Shown piece by piece: positions 43,101 through 49,252 of a stretch of 64,000 nt of DNA. Below the pieces are notes generated by a model. That model did no database searches and was not told where the DNA came from. It worked only from the letters and a program-made list of their open reading frames with translations. The DNA comes from Chondrosia reniformis (Eukaryota; Porifera; Demospongiae; Chondrillida; Chondrillidae): assembly GCA_947172415.1 (NCBI GenBank), contig OX359191.1:7611130-7675129 (forward strand). Direction: 5' to 3'. The position numbers were made by a program, and so were the translations under genes. How positions within the stretch are numbered: position 1 is the stretch's first letter; each line of letters opens with the position of its first letter.

Positions 43101-44842
43101 ACATCAGGACAGACGGTGATGCCCTGTTTCCAGAGGCTCTTGATGGAAAACTTGCTACATTTGTTATCAATTCCTTCCCCATTTACAATGTCAACACGTC
43201 CAATAATGAGACTGGCCAACCATGGGATGGTTAGCAGCATTATGGTGCTACCAGCAAGTGTACTGAGAGCAAGAGGGAGCAGAAAGAAGATGCTGTTACT
43301 AGTAAAAGAGCAAGCAATCAAAATATCAAAATCACATTTGAAACAGGAGGGAACACAAGGTTAATAGGTAGTTCAAAGAAACAAGCATCCTTTGATTCGG
43401 CAACTGGCTCAATAGTGACATAGAATGTATAGGAAATACACACTTAACCTTCTCTGCTCCGAAAGACAGGAAAATGGCAAAGTTTAGAACTACATGATAA
43501 GTAACAGTTCAAACCTAACCCCATTCCGACATTGATCTCCTTCTGAGCATCATCTCTATCTCCTCCGATCCCTGAAGCGACAATCATTGCTGAGTCAGGC
43601 ACTGCTCCCAGAAGTGGGAGGACCACACCCCCTAAAGGAAGACCAGAGAACAAGACCTGAAATAGGGCTATTCAAGGGACACACCCACTCTCATCATAAA
43701 TAATCAACCATATAAATAGTCATTCTTGAATATCATGAAGAGAGAAATAAGGAAGAAGCAGTTGCTGGAATCAAACTCAGGATGACCACCAGTGCTCTGC
43801 CACTGATCTACAACTGCCATAGCAATGCTCCATCCATGTTTCCCCTCTTATGCTAACTACAAAGTTGGTAATCAGTTGTCATTCACACTGATTCCCATTT
43901 ATCAGAATGAGCTGATATCAGTCTCCCTTAAGACACACCCACCCACATAGTCATGCATATATTTCAGCTGTTTCTTGTACAAATTTGTACCCTTTCAATA
44001 CACTTGTACAAGAAACAGCTGCAAATTCTGAATAGCTCCTATTTAAGATTTTAAGGGTACATACCAGATTGTGTTATATCATTTCTCTAGCACACCTACC
44101 AATGATGGCTGCAGGTAGCCCAAGGTCCAGCAACAACTCAGCTCCATCTAAAAAGAGGAATACATAGTTTTGAGGTTGGTCAATATCTAAGAATACTGCA
44201 ATCAACAGCCTACCAAACACTTACCAGAAATCAGCTTTGCAGAATAACCCAGAACAACTCCATAGAGAAGAACAAGAATGAGATTTCCAACTATCTACAG
44301 GGAGAAAGAGACAGGTGGCAGTAGTTTAGCGAGAGGATAACCAAACTAGGTATTGTACTACATGTCTGTACTGTAGCTTATTATCAGAGAGCTTCAACCT
44401 TTAAATTATAATCAGGGGAACACGCAAAGTTGCTGCCAGCTTACGGCGCAATGAAAGATCACAAACATGTAGGAATCAGAATCCCACAAAATACAGCCCA
44501 TGCCAAGTGGAAGAAACGTACTAGCTGGCTTAATCCACATGCAATTGGAAAACGAAAGAATAAAGTGATTTGTTATTCAGTTCATCACGTACCGTGAAGG
44601 AGCAGGGCTGCCAGCCTGTAACACATTCCTACGTGGAAAGAAGAGAGATAGTGCAACAAGTACATATCTCAAGATATATTCGAATGATCAATGCGAACTT
44701 TCATTTCTTGAAACATCGCCAAGTTAAATGTTGAATTTTCTAAGGTTTCATTAACGGCAAAGTTATATTCAGACATGACAGTCCTTCCCAGGGCTACCAG
44801 AGCAAGAATAAATACAAACGTTGAAACATTGCCTCTCATCAT
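40114..44842 (-). CDS. NCL-type cation/Ca2+ exchanger (multi-exon membrane protein)
   Basis: Member of the Na+/Ca2+ exchanger superfamily. The start is ATG at 44,842 with a signal peptide (VSTFVFILALVALG); a more 5' TTG is not used. Well-supported exons: 44592-44629, about 44230-44292, about 44107-44155, 43520-43656, 43053-43262, about 42724-42900, about 42327-42390, about 42160-42278, about 41994-42119, 41875-41937, 41711-41804, 41311-41426, 40556-40649, 40292-40374, 40114-40200. The first alpha repeat reads VVLPLLGAVPDSAMIVASG then TLAGSTIMLLTIPW. The second reads FYVSFVVTPICSNASELISS then YGAATMNNTLCLGIF. Between them is a charged cytosolic loop (KKKEEEEEEKKAEQEEEK). Both repeats resemble plant and invertebrate NCL proteins. 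I did not find convincing EF hands. The first donor (about 44,699) and the junction near 42,110-42,160 are uncertain. Before the Kolobok insertion the gene lay about 150 bp from TAF10. Confidence 0.85.
42407..42620. repeat. 54-bp minisatellite in an exchanger-gene intron
   Basis: Four copies of a 54-bp unit starting gtataatggaagcagtggca, nearly identical. Since 54 is divisible by three, several frames stay open on both strands. These ORFs are not genes. Confidence 0.93.
42903..43042. repeat. G-rich minisatellite in an exchanger-gene intron
   Basis: Units of ggtggaggggtgggtggatg and shorter ggaggggt repeats on plus, so the transcribed (minus) strand is C-rich. Dense G-runs could form quadruplexes on the plus strand. 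Confidence 0.9.
43758..43817 (-). other. tRNA-like remnant, possibly a SINE head
   Basis: On the minus strand a 7-bp outer stem gcagttg/caactgc encloses tagatcagtggcagagca (A-box-like) and gagtttgattcc (B-box-like). It is only about 60 nt long and its anticodon arm does not pair properly, so it is not a working tRNA gene. A tRNA-derived SINE head or a decayed tRNA are both possible. Confidence 0.3.
43965..44021. repeat. Perfect 18-bp inverted repeat in an exchanger-gene intron
   Basis: cagctgtttcttgtacaa (43,965-43,982) and its exact reverse complement (44,004-44,021) are separated by 21 nt. It extends by a few bases with one insertion (attt / caaat). Confidence 0.85.
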
Positions 44843-44989
44843 GGATTGCCCGAGTTTGTCTCTTTTCTTCAAAACCCGCGTTCACGCCTAACTTCGTATA
44901 ACCCCGTACATTAGTTAGCTAATGTTTCCGTATGTATTACATTAGGTAATTTCAATGTTTAGGTAAAACAGTTGAATAGTGGGAGCATC
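44843..44989. promoter_or_regulatory. Compact region between the exchanger start and the original TAF10 end
   Basis: About 150 bp that before the transposon insertion would have been both the TAF10 3' flank and the exchanger promoter or 5' UTR (both genes on minus). I see no canonical AATAAA on the minus strand and no TATA box here. Confidence 0.4.
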
Positions 44990-44993
44990 TTAA
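44990..44993. repeat. TTAA target site duplication, left
   Basis: TTAA immediately outside the left TIR of the Kolobok element, matching 48,425-48,428. Kolobok elements are known to duplicate TTAA. Confidence 0.9.
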
Positions 44994-45143
44994 AGGGGAA
45001 CTGACATCAAAAAACAAGTTGGCTTTAAAAGTTAGGGTTTGATACATAACAAATAGAAATGGGTGTCTTTTTTGCAACTGGTGCTTGGTTGGGCAGAAAT
45101 CGTTCATGTAAGAGGTCAAAAACACCCTTTTACGTCATCAAAA

Positions 45144-45194
45144 GGGCAGGCATGTTTTTTTGTGGTTAGGCATCATATTACGTCACTGGTAGGC
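45144..45194 (+). promoter_or_regulatory. Left subterminal inverted repeat and transposase promoter
   Basis: gggcaggcatgttttttt...ttacgtcactggtaggctt lies 50-100 bp upstream of the transposase ATG and is mirrored at 48,232-48,281. It contains the CRE-like core TTACGTCA, with another tttacgtcatc at 45,130. This is the likely promoter or a transposase-binding site; the function is inferred from position and symmetry only. Confidence 0.55.
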
Positions 45195-45242
45195 TTCGTA
45201 TATACCTAATGTATTAGAAAAATCATATTTCGGACGATAACT

Positions 45243-47532
45243 ATGCCGTACTGTATCGCATTCAATTGCTACAACAGCACAGATAAGCAATGCCCAGGTG
45301 TAAGCTTCCACAGACTTCCTGTGAAGAATAAACCATTGTGGAAGCGTTGGGAGGCAGCTCTTAAATTGAAGGACATTCCAATCCAGGATCAAAATGCTAG
45401 GGTGTGTTCAGAACACTTCCCAGAGAGTTGCTATACCCCAAATTTACAGCAAAGGTTGCTGGGCATAGCTTCTAAGAGGACCTTGCTTCCAGATGCTGTT
45501 CCCAGCATTTTTGATTTCCCAAGGCAACAACATGCTAAAAGACGTCCCTTGAGTGAGGGTAGAGCTCTTACTAAGAGATCCAGAGAAGAACTGGACAGCT
45601 CTGTTGATGATACAGAGCAATTGCTTGAGCAGGCAAATGAGGATACTCTTCAGTTAGATGAATATGAAGGCATAGCATGCTCTGTGGAGGTACAAACAGG
45701 TAAAGGTCAAGCATCCTTTGTTATTGCACCAAAGGTGTCACTATTTCATTTGTAATGATTATGAAGAGTGGATACCTTCTAACCCAGTGGTGTCACACAA
45801 ATTTGTACAAACAGACCCCTGGCCAAGCATGACCTTAAGAAGTGTTAGTACTCAGACTGACCCAAACATGGATGATTTCGAATTCCCTGTTCCTAAGGTC
45901 AATTATGAGGTAGTTGATGATCAGGATGATGAAAGGTACATACATGAATGAAGACCTCTTCTGCCACATACATGTAAAATCTCTAACTGCTTTTCTATAA
46001 TTAAATGCAGAATGGACGATGACCCTCTAAATTCTACCTTAGATGATACGTTTGAAGAAGACCCAGAGTTGATTGACTGTGAAGGGTCTCATGAGTGTTC
46101 ATCTAAAGAAGGAAAGTTCATTGTATTCGAATCAGCCTTGCTCCCTTTATTTAGATATTGTAGATCATGTGGGCAGCATACCACTTTGAGCACTTCTTTG
46201 TGTGGTACACTACTGGTTATCAAGGGAAATTGTCCTGATGACCATACATTCTATTGGCAGTCTCAACCTCTTGTAGGTAAGGCACCTGCAGGTAATTTAT
46301 TGTTAGCAGGTGCCATACTGTTCTCTGGGCTAACATATACCAAATTTGCCACTATAGCCAACTTACTGAATCTTAAAATATTTACTGAACGTACTTTTTA
46401 TAGAATACAAGAGGCACGATTATTCCCAATAGTAAATTCATACTACAAAGAGACCCAGATAGTAATAACTGAAATACTAAAAGATAAGGGTACTCTCAAT
46501 TTATCTGGTGATGGCCGCTGTGATAGTCCTGGATATTGTGCAAAGTATTGTACATATTCTTTGATGGACAATTCATCAGGTCTCATCTTAGATTACAGTA
46601 TGGTACAGGTCACTGACACTGGCAGCTCAGGGACTATGGAGAAAGAGGGCTTGAGACGATGCCTTAACAAGGTTCTTAATGAATTTAATTTAAATGTTGG
46701 CACCCTTGCTACTGATAGACACAAACAAATATCTGCCTTTCTAAGAGTAGATTACCCAAATATCAACCATCAATTTGATGTTTGGCATGTTAGCAAAAGT
46801 GTCACAAAGAAGTTGACCAAAGAGGGCATTAAAAATGGCCACGGTAGTCTGCTACCTTGGATTCAGTCCATATCAAACCACTTGTGGTGGTCGGCACAGA
46901 GCTGCAACTTGAACCCTGATGTTCTTGTTGCCAAGTGGAGTTCTATTGTGCACCATGTTGTCAATGTTCATAGTTGGCAAGATAGACATTTTCAATCATG
47001 CGAGCATGGACCTCTTGACGATGCACAGTGCCGGAAAAAATGGCTGAAGCCAAATGGTCGTGCCCATCTTGCTCTTAAAAATGTTGTTCTTAACAATGCT
47101 TTGTTAAGAGATATACCAAAGCTAAGCAGCTTTTGTCATACAGGCATGCTTGAAGTGTTCCATTCCCTGCTGACTAAGTATTGCCCTAAACGTCAGCATT
47201 TTAGCTTCATGGGAATGTGTGTGCGTACAGAATTAGCCATACTTGATCATAATTACAATATCGAAAGGGAGCAGGCAACAACTAGCGAGGGCATCCTCCA
47301 ATACAAACTGGAATTTTCAAAGGCAACAAAGAGATGGGTAGCAAAACCAGTTAAGGAAGCCAAATCCTATGCTTATTTGCATGATATGCTAGAGTTATTA
47401 GTTGATCTTACATTTCAAGAACAGCAAGATTTAGACATATCCGAACTTAATCTACCTTCAAACATAGCTAAAGTTCCACGCCCTAACAAGCAAGATGTAA
47501 TTAATCAACAAATGACACGTTTTGGAAGTTAA
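45243..47532 (+). CDS. Kolobok transposase with N-terminal THAP domain
   Basis: Predicted cut-and-paste transposase. Exons 45243-45699, 45767-45935 and 46011-47532 join to 715 residues; the second junction is clear, the first (67-nt intron with a weak acceptor) less so. Residues 1-90 form a C2CH THAP zinc finger (MPYCIAFNC, VSFHRLP, W-RWEAAL, ARVCSEHF, LLPDAVPSIF) that should bind the element ends. The catalytic region has GDGRCDSPGYC (about residue 375) with a first Asp, LATDRHKQI with a second Asp and nearby His, then the late block TGMLEVFHSLLTKYCPKRQH with a Glu and RTELAILDHN. These blocks recur in THAP-bearing Kolobok-like proteins of fish, corals and sponges. No stop or frameshift is seen. 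Its ATG is about 50 bp from the left subterminal repeat. Confidence 0.9.
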
Positions 47533-47597
47533 TTTATTGTAATGTTTATTGCATACATCATGCACAAAGTACATACTTGCTTATAACTTGTTTATAA

Positions 47598-48227
47598 CTA
47601 CCATGGATATTCTAGATTGGCTAAATGTTCTCTAAATCCTACATATACTCCTGATTGCTCTGGAAAGGAATTCCTAATGGCTAGTACAGCGCAAGATGGT
47701 ATTACTCTACGGACTCTTCTCCCCAGCTTGGAATGTGTGTACCATGTAAACTGTCTGTATGCTGCAAGTCGGTAGGATCTGAAAGGCATTGAAGAAACAG
47801 CACTTGTGGGTATGGGCATTGAAGAAGAAAATTCAATCAGTTAAACGCCTATACGTAATTATATGAATATTTACCTATTCTGTATAGGATCAGGTAATGG
47901 GGCAAATCCAACGTCCATCATACCCACAAGTGCTGTTTCAAGAACAGCTACATTCAAAACGACTGCGCTAAAAGCCTCCCCATCCGTAATACATCTGTGC
48001 GTGGCTTCCACTTTAGCTTGTACTCTTGGAATCGCTTGGCAACAAACGTTTTCTATTTGCCGTTCCATTCTCGAACATTTGCCGCAAGAGCACCATGTCG
48101 AAACATCATCTTCACTCCCGTTCGGTTCTGTCGATGTTTCGTTCCCAGAAGAAGTCGATTCTGAGTCTTCTTCGGCCTCGCTGCCACTATAAGTCGGCTC
48201 GAACTGATATGGCCTAACGACGGCCAT
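47598..48227 (-). CDS. P2X7-type ballast-domain protein carried by the Kolobok element
   Basis: Two exons, 48227-47875 and 47778-47598, with consensus splice sites (AATAG|GTAAAT, CTTTCAG|A) join in frame to 177 residues. The N-terminus (MAVVRPYQFEP, then an acidic Ser/Glu stretch) is followed by TWCSCGKC (Cys 46, 48, 51), ENVCCQ (62, 63) and Cys 79. Exon 2 gives YRLAAYRQFTWY, RRVRRVIPSCAV, then IRNSFPEQSGVYVGF. These align in order with the human P2X7 cytosolic ballast: WCRCGSC, LCCRKKP, CAYRCYATW, ILPSCC, RIRKEFPKSEGQYSGF. In P2X7 this domain binds zinc and guanine nucleotide; here there is no channel part, so it is a stand-alone soluble protein. It starts next to the right subterminal repeat and converges on the transposase. 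Its role for the transposon is unknown. Confidence 0.88.
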
Positions 48228-48231
48228 AACT

Positions 48232-48281
48232 CAAGGCTACCAGTGACGTTTTTTGACGTGCAACCGCAAAAAAACATGCCT
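48232..48281 (-). promoter_or_regulatory. Right subterminal inverted repeat and ballast-gene promoter
   Basis: Mirror of 45,144-45,194: on minus it reads ggcaggcatgtttttttgcgg, then cacgtcaaaaaacgtcactggtagcctt. Two CGTCA motifs match those on the left. It ends five bases from the ballast-gene ATG. Confidence 0.55.
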
Positions 48282-48424
48282 GCCATGATGGGCGATTTAA
48301 ACGCTTCCGTATTCTACTTCCAGGTAAGTAATTTCGTTACTGACACTACTATTCCTTGTTACTAATAGACCCCTGTCGATTTATGCAAAAAAATAGTAAC
48401 AAAAAATTTGATGTCAGTTCCCCT

Positions 48425-48428
48425 TTAA
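48425..48428. repeat. TTAA target site duplication, right, containing the TAF10 stop codon
   Basis: TTAA directly outside the right TIR. On the minus strand its complement supplies the TAA (48,425-48,427) that ends TAF10. Confidence 0.9.
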
Positions 48429-49252
48429 GTAAAATAGTAAGGTTTCTTCACATTGACACCAAATTCAGCCAAAGCTGGAGCCAAATCTTCTACAGTTAGA
48501 GTATACTGCTTCTCCTGAAATTGAAAGGAAGAAAAGGCATCATTACACTAGTACATACACATACATACATACATTACTACAGTATAATATATGAAGAGAT
48601 AAGCATAGCTGTAAATTCTAATGTAATTAAATTTCATCTTTTTATACATTTTTGTCATATATTGGTACTGGTTGTATGATGCTGGTAGAAATGGTTTCAC
48701 TAGAAATACGTAATACAGCTAGAGAGCATGGACTTGTACAGGGAGACTTTAAATCTGTTGACATAAAATAGAAGTTGAATTTAATTTTGACATTGTGTAT
48801 CTCTCAGCTACAGATGACCCTGTATACACTCTCCCTCCTCCTGGCTGCACTCAGAGAGTAGTAATATTCTCTAGTTGCTATGGTGACCTGTCTACCTCAA
48901 GGAGCCATGACGTAGCACACTGGTGGTCATATGTGTGTTCTTTATTATGGTGCAACAATATGTTTCAATGCTTACTCTTATCTTTATATTATTAACACAC
49001 AATTTATTAAACGTCTGTCTATATTAAATACACTGACCAGGGTCACCAAAGACTATTATATTTCATTGAGCTAATGAGATTTCCCAGTCTAAATACAATT
49101 AAAGTATTAAAATTGGGTTCATTTGAAGTCAGTTACCTACCTTGCTTCCCTTCTTCACAGTCTGTGCACCACCTCTTAGTTTACAGTGCTGGTAGGCATC
49201 ATTAAGAGCGTCTGATATAAACTTTTGTGTTGCCAAGGATACCAGCCTTACA
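48425..49252 (-). CDS. TAF10: TAF10, C-terminal part (partial)
   Basis: Subunit of TFIID and SAGA with a histone fold. Exon 49252-49141 reads VRLVSLATQKFISDALNDAY then QHCKLRGG, like human IRLISLAAQKFISDIANDAL then QHCK. Exon 48514-48425 reads EKQYTLTVEDLAPALAEFG then VNVKKPYYFT and stop, like human LTMEDLTPALSEYGINVKKP then HYFT. The two join in frame (112 + 90 nt) and end at the residue where human TAF10 ends. The upstream exon(s) coding the first helix of the fold should lie above 49,252 on minus; I searched 49,253-57,800 by eye and could not find them. This may therefore be a complete gene with a distant 5' part or a 3' remnant. A Kolobok element abuts the stop codon. Confidence 0.85.
48690..48930 (+). 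pseudogene. Fragment of the FN3/EGF/vWA gene in a TAF10 intron
   Basis: Matches exon 12 of the gene at 29,069-37,595 around 36,650-36,850. LVQGDFKSVD resembles [10 protein letters not shown], and [16 protein letters not shown] resembles [16 protein letters not shown]. It carries an in-frame stop after the first block and has no flanking exons. It lies antisense to TAF10. A dispersed dead gene fragment. Confidence 0.85.

Follow-up and report, generated by a model that had tools for sequence, protein, structure and literature searches.

A two-gene Kolobok transposon of the sponge Chondrosia reniformis pairs a THAP transposase with KolX, a P2X7-type ballast protein and probable accessory transposition factor

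Why should a relative of the cytosolic ballast of the P2X7 receptor lie inside a DNA transposon? The question is raised by a Kolobok element in a 64,000-nucleotide stretch of the Chondrosia reniformis genome (GenBank assembly GCA_947172415.1, contig OX359191.1, forward-strand positions 7,611,130 to 7,675,129; hereafter the window, from whose first base coordinates are counted). An earlier note on this DNA had described a THAP transposase gene beside a ballast gene, the latter serving as cargo or as an accessory transposition factor. We find a recently moved, two-gene element of the Kol0 kind, a Kolobok group described as encoding a transposase and a second protein, KolX (Kojima & Bao 2022, PMC9587614). 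From the sequence comparisons below, KolX is most likely an accessory transposition factor, a reading to which we assign a probability of roughly 0.75.

The element is bounded by terminal inverted repeats (TIRs) that are perfect over 18 bp and flanked by TTAA on both sides, as the earlier note had stated. A chance origin was rejected, since the window, with its 613 TTAA sites, contains no other perfect, TTAA-flanked 18-bp inverted pair at 300-6,000 bp spacing. The ends read AG...CT and thus follow the 5'-RR...YY-3' pattern given for Kolobok (PMC9587614), and the TTAA target-site duplication is present at both identical copies and three related copies described below, filled sites alone being compared. 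On the plus strand, the predicted transposase comprises 715 amino acids encoded by three exons with two small introns, a splice model that we chose for its consensus-like donor from 92 frame-keeping combinations listed by a script. The THAP assignment held: PF05485 is matched over its full length, with the C2CH residues, P-W-F and the AVPTIF box, which reads AVPSIF here. The third exon matches the Mutator family PF20700 at an E value of 2.4e-5, below the curated cut-off, and 600 proteins at E ≤ 0.001 (best 120 of 600). It contains GDGRCD, TDRH, DVWH and LEVFH in that order, consistent with a DDD/E triad carrying C/DxxH between the second D and the E, the residues being assigned by motif.

The second gene, KolX, is convergent with the transposase, the two stop codons lying 65 bp apart. 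It encodes a protein of 177 amino acids in two minus-strand exons, and the GT-AG intron that we find has precisely the proposed junction, 47,875/47,778. Its P2X7-type identity was likewise borne out. Each exon matches P2RX7_C (PF20478) independently, at 40.4 and 33.8 bits against a cut-off of 23.5, and in the PDB the spliced protein matches P2X7 (6u9v, E 7e-9) and nothing else, all four distinct sequences with E ≤ 0.001 being P2X7. All seven zinc-site cysteines are present by alignment, C46, C48, C51, C62, C63, C79 and C147 corresponding to rat P2X7 477, 479, 482, 498, 499, 506 and 572, and the ballast fold appears in a predicted model of the relative P0002, a stand-in for the window protein (VIA-align). 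Further afield, one scan of viral contigs for KolX relatives gave 11 pattern matches, none of them confirmed, and a protein joining RVT_1 to a ballast (P0016) was set aside because it looks like a gene-model join.

The element has moved recently. Its first 307 bases match eight places in the 117-Mb host genome, its own site included, and the copy on C1, another chromosome, is 3,431 bp long and 100% identical between different flanks (L009). The other matches are three copies with internal deletions (L010, L012, L014), a whole copy whose transposase carries stops and which is interrupted by some 0.9 kb of inserted sequence (L011), and two partial, diverged copies on C11 near 0.65 Mb (L013). With the window element assigned to family A, a second family, B, comprises three TTAA-flanked copies, two on C5 and one on C4, of 3,421-3,428 bp and 97-98% alike; their TIRs resemble those of family A, and the KolX start, intron position and stop coincide in alignment. 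A 21-bp inverted repeat brackets the KolX donor site in the window element, and the fold of this pre-mRNA segment scores z -6.3 relative to shuffles. Altered forms of the repeat occur in four relatives from family A, namely L041, L011, L044 and L014, the last two without the stretch round the donor. The repeat is absent from family B, and this hairpin is therefore excluded from the mechanism proposed below.

Table 1. Features of the Kolobok element, in window coordinates.
Feature	Position	Strand	Basis
Whole Kolobok element (family A), 3,431 bp	44994..48424	+	TIRs, TTAA, 100% identical second copy
TTAA target-site copy, left	44990..44993	strandless	
Left TIR AGGGGAACTGACATCAAA	44994..45011	+	
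Transposase exon 1, with THAP domain	45243..45699	+	PF05485 E 2.4e-15; splice model
Transposase exon 2	45767..45935	+	Open-frame splice model, predicted
Transposase exon 3, catalytic DDE region containing DVWH (C/DxxH)	46011..47532	+	PF20700 below cut-off; protein matches; motif
KolX exon 2: AAYRQFTW, LGxxxRRVIPSC, IRxxFP	47598..47778	-	PF20478 E 4.1e-8
KolX intron, 96 nt, GT-AG	47779..47874	-	Position and phase shared with family B
21-bp perfect inverted repeat, KolX intron arm	47794..47814	-	Pairs with exon 1 arm 47919-47939
KolX exon 1: PYQFEP, acidic tail, CxCxxC...CC...C	47875..48227	-	PF20478 E 4e-10
Right TIR (reverse complement of left)	48407..48424	-	
TTAA target-site copy, right; includes TAA stop codon of host TAF10	48425..48428	strandless	

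Genome-wide searches link the two genes. Matches to PF20478 numbered 35, grouped in 26 clusters, and those to the window transposase 68, in 34 clusters; the best candidates only were scored, so that cluster and match counts are lower bounds. For 20 of the 26 ballast clusters a matching transposase cluster is located no more than 2 kb away, and all 20 pairs are arranged tail to tail. KolX and transposase distances also correlate (Mantel r 0.775 over 21 loci, all of them used, with 208 of 210 pairs; r 0.763 over 12 non-redundant loci, after dropping loci within 0.15 transposase distance of a kept locus; p 0.0001, the lowest value the test can return). Because many of the copies are damaged, the distances come from the remaining columns. 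These data indicate that the pair is ancient in this genome and has been co-inherited over deep divergence, a pattern that recurrent uptake of a host gene would not produce. In many animals, annotation lists ballast proteins among the ordinary genes, as would be expected of a host gene carried as cargo. Such an origin is contradicted here by the linkage, the constant convergent order and the co-divergence with the transposase, as well as by the earlier description of KolX as a Kol0 gene (PMC9587614), and we regard it as extremely improbable. The ballast gene belongs to the transposon and, with 26 ballast clusters in the genome, is not unique to this locus.

Selection tells a similar story. Between families A and B, the ratio of non-synonymous to synonymous substitution rates (dN/dS) is 0.22-0.23 for KolX, near the 0.20 of the transposase exon, and KolX is thus under purifying constraint between families. 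Together with linkage and co-divergence, this constraint favours the accessory-factor half of the earlier proposal, which would stand while the cargo half falls with the co-inherited pair.

Several results weigh against an accessory role. By proportions of changed sites (pN/pS), constraint on KolX is weaker than on the transposase exon (0.41, bootstrap 0.31-0.53, versus 0.31, bootstrap 0.25-0.38), and A-B synonymous sites are near saturation (KolX pS 0.63-0.65), which makes dN/dS rough. Between two family B copies, B1 and B2, KolX differs by 2 synonymous and 6 non-synonymous changes, with no sign of constraint, and in the third, B3, it is frameshifted, so that one of three family B KolX genes is affected. 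Pairing is also incomplete in both directions. Fourteen transposase clusters remain unpaired with a Pfam ballast match; in the seven of these examined as loci, a KolX profile detects the gene at two (C11:2.712 Mb, C13:3.801 Mb) and a weak fragment of it at a third (C8:2.234 Mb), and finds no KolX within 1.5 kb at the other four. Those four and the seven outside the examined set each match fewer than 900 of the 1,578 query bases. Conversely, the window transposase has no match near six of the 26 ballast clusters; two of these lie on C2, and the others, three on C9 and one on C11, are small THAP-plus-KolX elements or relics. Finally, between-family constraint shows that KolX has some use without specifying which.

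Identical linkage and constraint data are predicted if KolX is instead a regulator or host-defence antagonist, for example a repressor, chromatin or silencing factor, that aids survival of the element outside cut-and-paste, an explanation we consider unlikely. In its favour, the small elements on C9 and C11 keep THAP and KolX with no match to the transposase catalytic part, recalling the precedent of truncated P-element repressors. Against it, KolX in the C9 copies is without clear constraint: pN/pS is about 0.8-1.2 for L024 versus the other two (19 changes per pair, both exons), and those two differ from each other by 0 synonymous and 6 non-synonymous changes. The C9 elements may therefore be ordinary deletion derivatives.

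The three C9 elements (L024, L034, L037) have the TIR AGGTCCACTGTC. L024 is 1,875 bp long at a clean TTAA; L034, one TTAA of which is short by a base, and L037 lie about 14 kb apart with flanks common to both, and look like a single insertion duplicated afterwards. The small TTAA element with THAP on C11 (L023:1124-2438) carries the KolX C-terminal exon inverted, on the same strand as THAP, and splicing could yield a fusion of THAP and KolX. Rump et al. (2020) mention such a combination in Ixodes, a protein whose N-terminal domain is given as 'TAHP' (presumably THAP) and which also contains a ballast.

In the mechanism that we favour, with KolX as an accessory factor, the THAP-DDE transposase would bind the element ends, then cut and paste at TTAA, and KolX, a free zinc protein with the ballast fold, would have been its partner since before the family split. 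The compact, zinc-held KolX core would most likely dock on the transposase-DNA complex via a conserved arginine face, formed by LGxxxRR and two further arginines, perhaps joined by the N-terminal PYxFEP/acidic tail. Conservation was assessed over 102 rows, namely the window protein, the B2 protein and, of 132 KolX-type proteins, the 100 that are 140-310 amino acids long (source proteins, the best 120 of 378). KolX-type here denotes a ballast protein of KolX length chosen without regard to a transposase neighbour; some are named P2X7-like, and one is a 170-residue Xenopus protein named P2X7. The LGxxxRR motif is conserved among them, and PYxFEP or PFxFEP is present in full in 57 of 102. Like the P2X7 ballast, KolX has the seven-cysteine zinc motif, the helical fold, IRxxFP and YxGF; it differs as a separate short protein with LGxxxRR, a motif not found in the P2X7 chains compared (three mammalian chains aligned from residue 472 on, to the exclusion of fish, frog and reptile P2X7).

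The second arginine of LGxxxRR aligns with P2X7 A567, described as a contact of guanosine diphosphate (GDP), a position occupied by Arg or Lys in 89 of 95 KolX-type rows. Could KolX bind a guanine nucleotide as P2X7 does? Transposition would then depend on guanosine triphosphate (GTP), as in the P-element transposase, which pairs THAP with GTP. Arginine is indeed conserved at P2X7 positions 546 (96 of 101 rows) and 578 (92 of 95). Of the remaining residues of the five-residue GDP site, H547 is kept in 2 of 102 rows, R574 in 0 of 94 and K583 in 0 of 95, and the window protein has R546 and R578 only; these losses and the basic residue at 567 make GTP dependence very unlikely. Rump et al. (2020) similarly report that only R546 and R578 are kept beyond deuterostomes, noting that the site may nonetheless bind GDP and that even the P2X7 of other vertebrates does not keep all five residues. 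The guanine pocket of P2X7 may thus postdate capture of the ballast. Tentatively, and with the odds clearly against it, we suggest that the arginine pocket of KolX (P2X7 positions 546, 566, 567 and 578) grips DNA or the transposase, and that loss of the 566/567 arginines after capture made the guanine-nucleotide site.

The link between ballast and transposon is not new here. Kojima & Bao (2022, PMC9587614) proposed that P2X7, whose ballast KolX resembles, arose by fusion with KolX, so that the dispersal of the domain by such elements and its capture by a P2X gene, as raised in the earlier note, are already in print. In the literature searched, KolX is named only in that paper, and P2X7 and Kolobok otherwise co-occur in one review, in unrelated places. 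New are these families, the KolX-transposase co-divergence, the constraint data and the LGxxxRR pointer. Kol0 elements, reported from sponges among others and exemplified by Kolobok-1_XT, share the TTAA target, RR/YY ends and both proteins with ours; no essential difference was seen, KolX as second protein being the basis of the Kol0 placement (PMC9587614). Zebrafish Nanor, a free ballast protein like KolX and probably a domesticated one by the same account, differs in being described as a host gene, a comparison made by description. KolobokP likewise has an accessory gene downstream of its transposase and on the opposite strand, but this accessory is described as a His-Me finger nuclease, and KolobokP bears long terminal direct repeats. 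Xenopus Kolobok (XKol) shares THAP plus DDE, TTAA and AG ends, and its subfamily A5 TIR, AGGGGAACTATCATGA, is close to that of the window element; it differs in its size of about 7-14 kb, and the description consulted names no second protein. Rump et al. (2020) also state that ballast genes from sponge to sea urchin have two neighbour genes in common, which may be transposon genes.

One P2X gene was found in the C. reniformis genome (two matches on C5), with none of the 35 PF20478 matches within 2.6 Mb of it. On C12, an intronless KolX (L015) matches the profile from 1 to 173 within one frame, and direct capture of a ballast contained in one exon, as in P2X7 exon 13, would therefore be possible. 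At its own site, the insertion point of the window element coincides with the stop codon of the host gene TAF10 (48425-48514, minus strand, ...VKKPYYFT*; last 64 residues matching PF03540, E 4.9e-21). The stop is preserved because its TAA falls within the duplicated TTAA target, and the former downstream sequence of TAF10 is now 3.4 kb off, beyond the same-strand KolX gene. About 150 bp outside the left element end is a minus-strand open frame (44669-44881) whose start, MRGNVSTFVFILALVAL..., is signal-peptide-like by eye.

Two identical, apparently intact copies, together with related families of the same genome, offer material for testing the role of KolX in cells. That role bears on the ancestral role of the P2X7 ballast, and the alignment affords a residue-level prediction of what changed when a receptor captured it. 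If the arginine-pocket suggestion is true, the signalling pocket of P2X7 would be a remodelled transposition surface.
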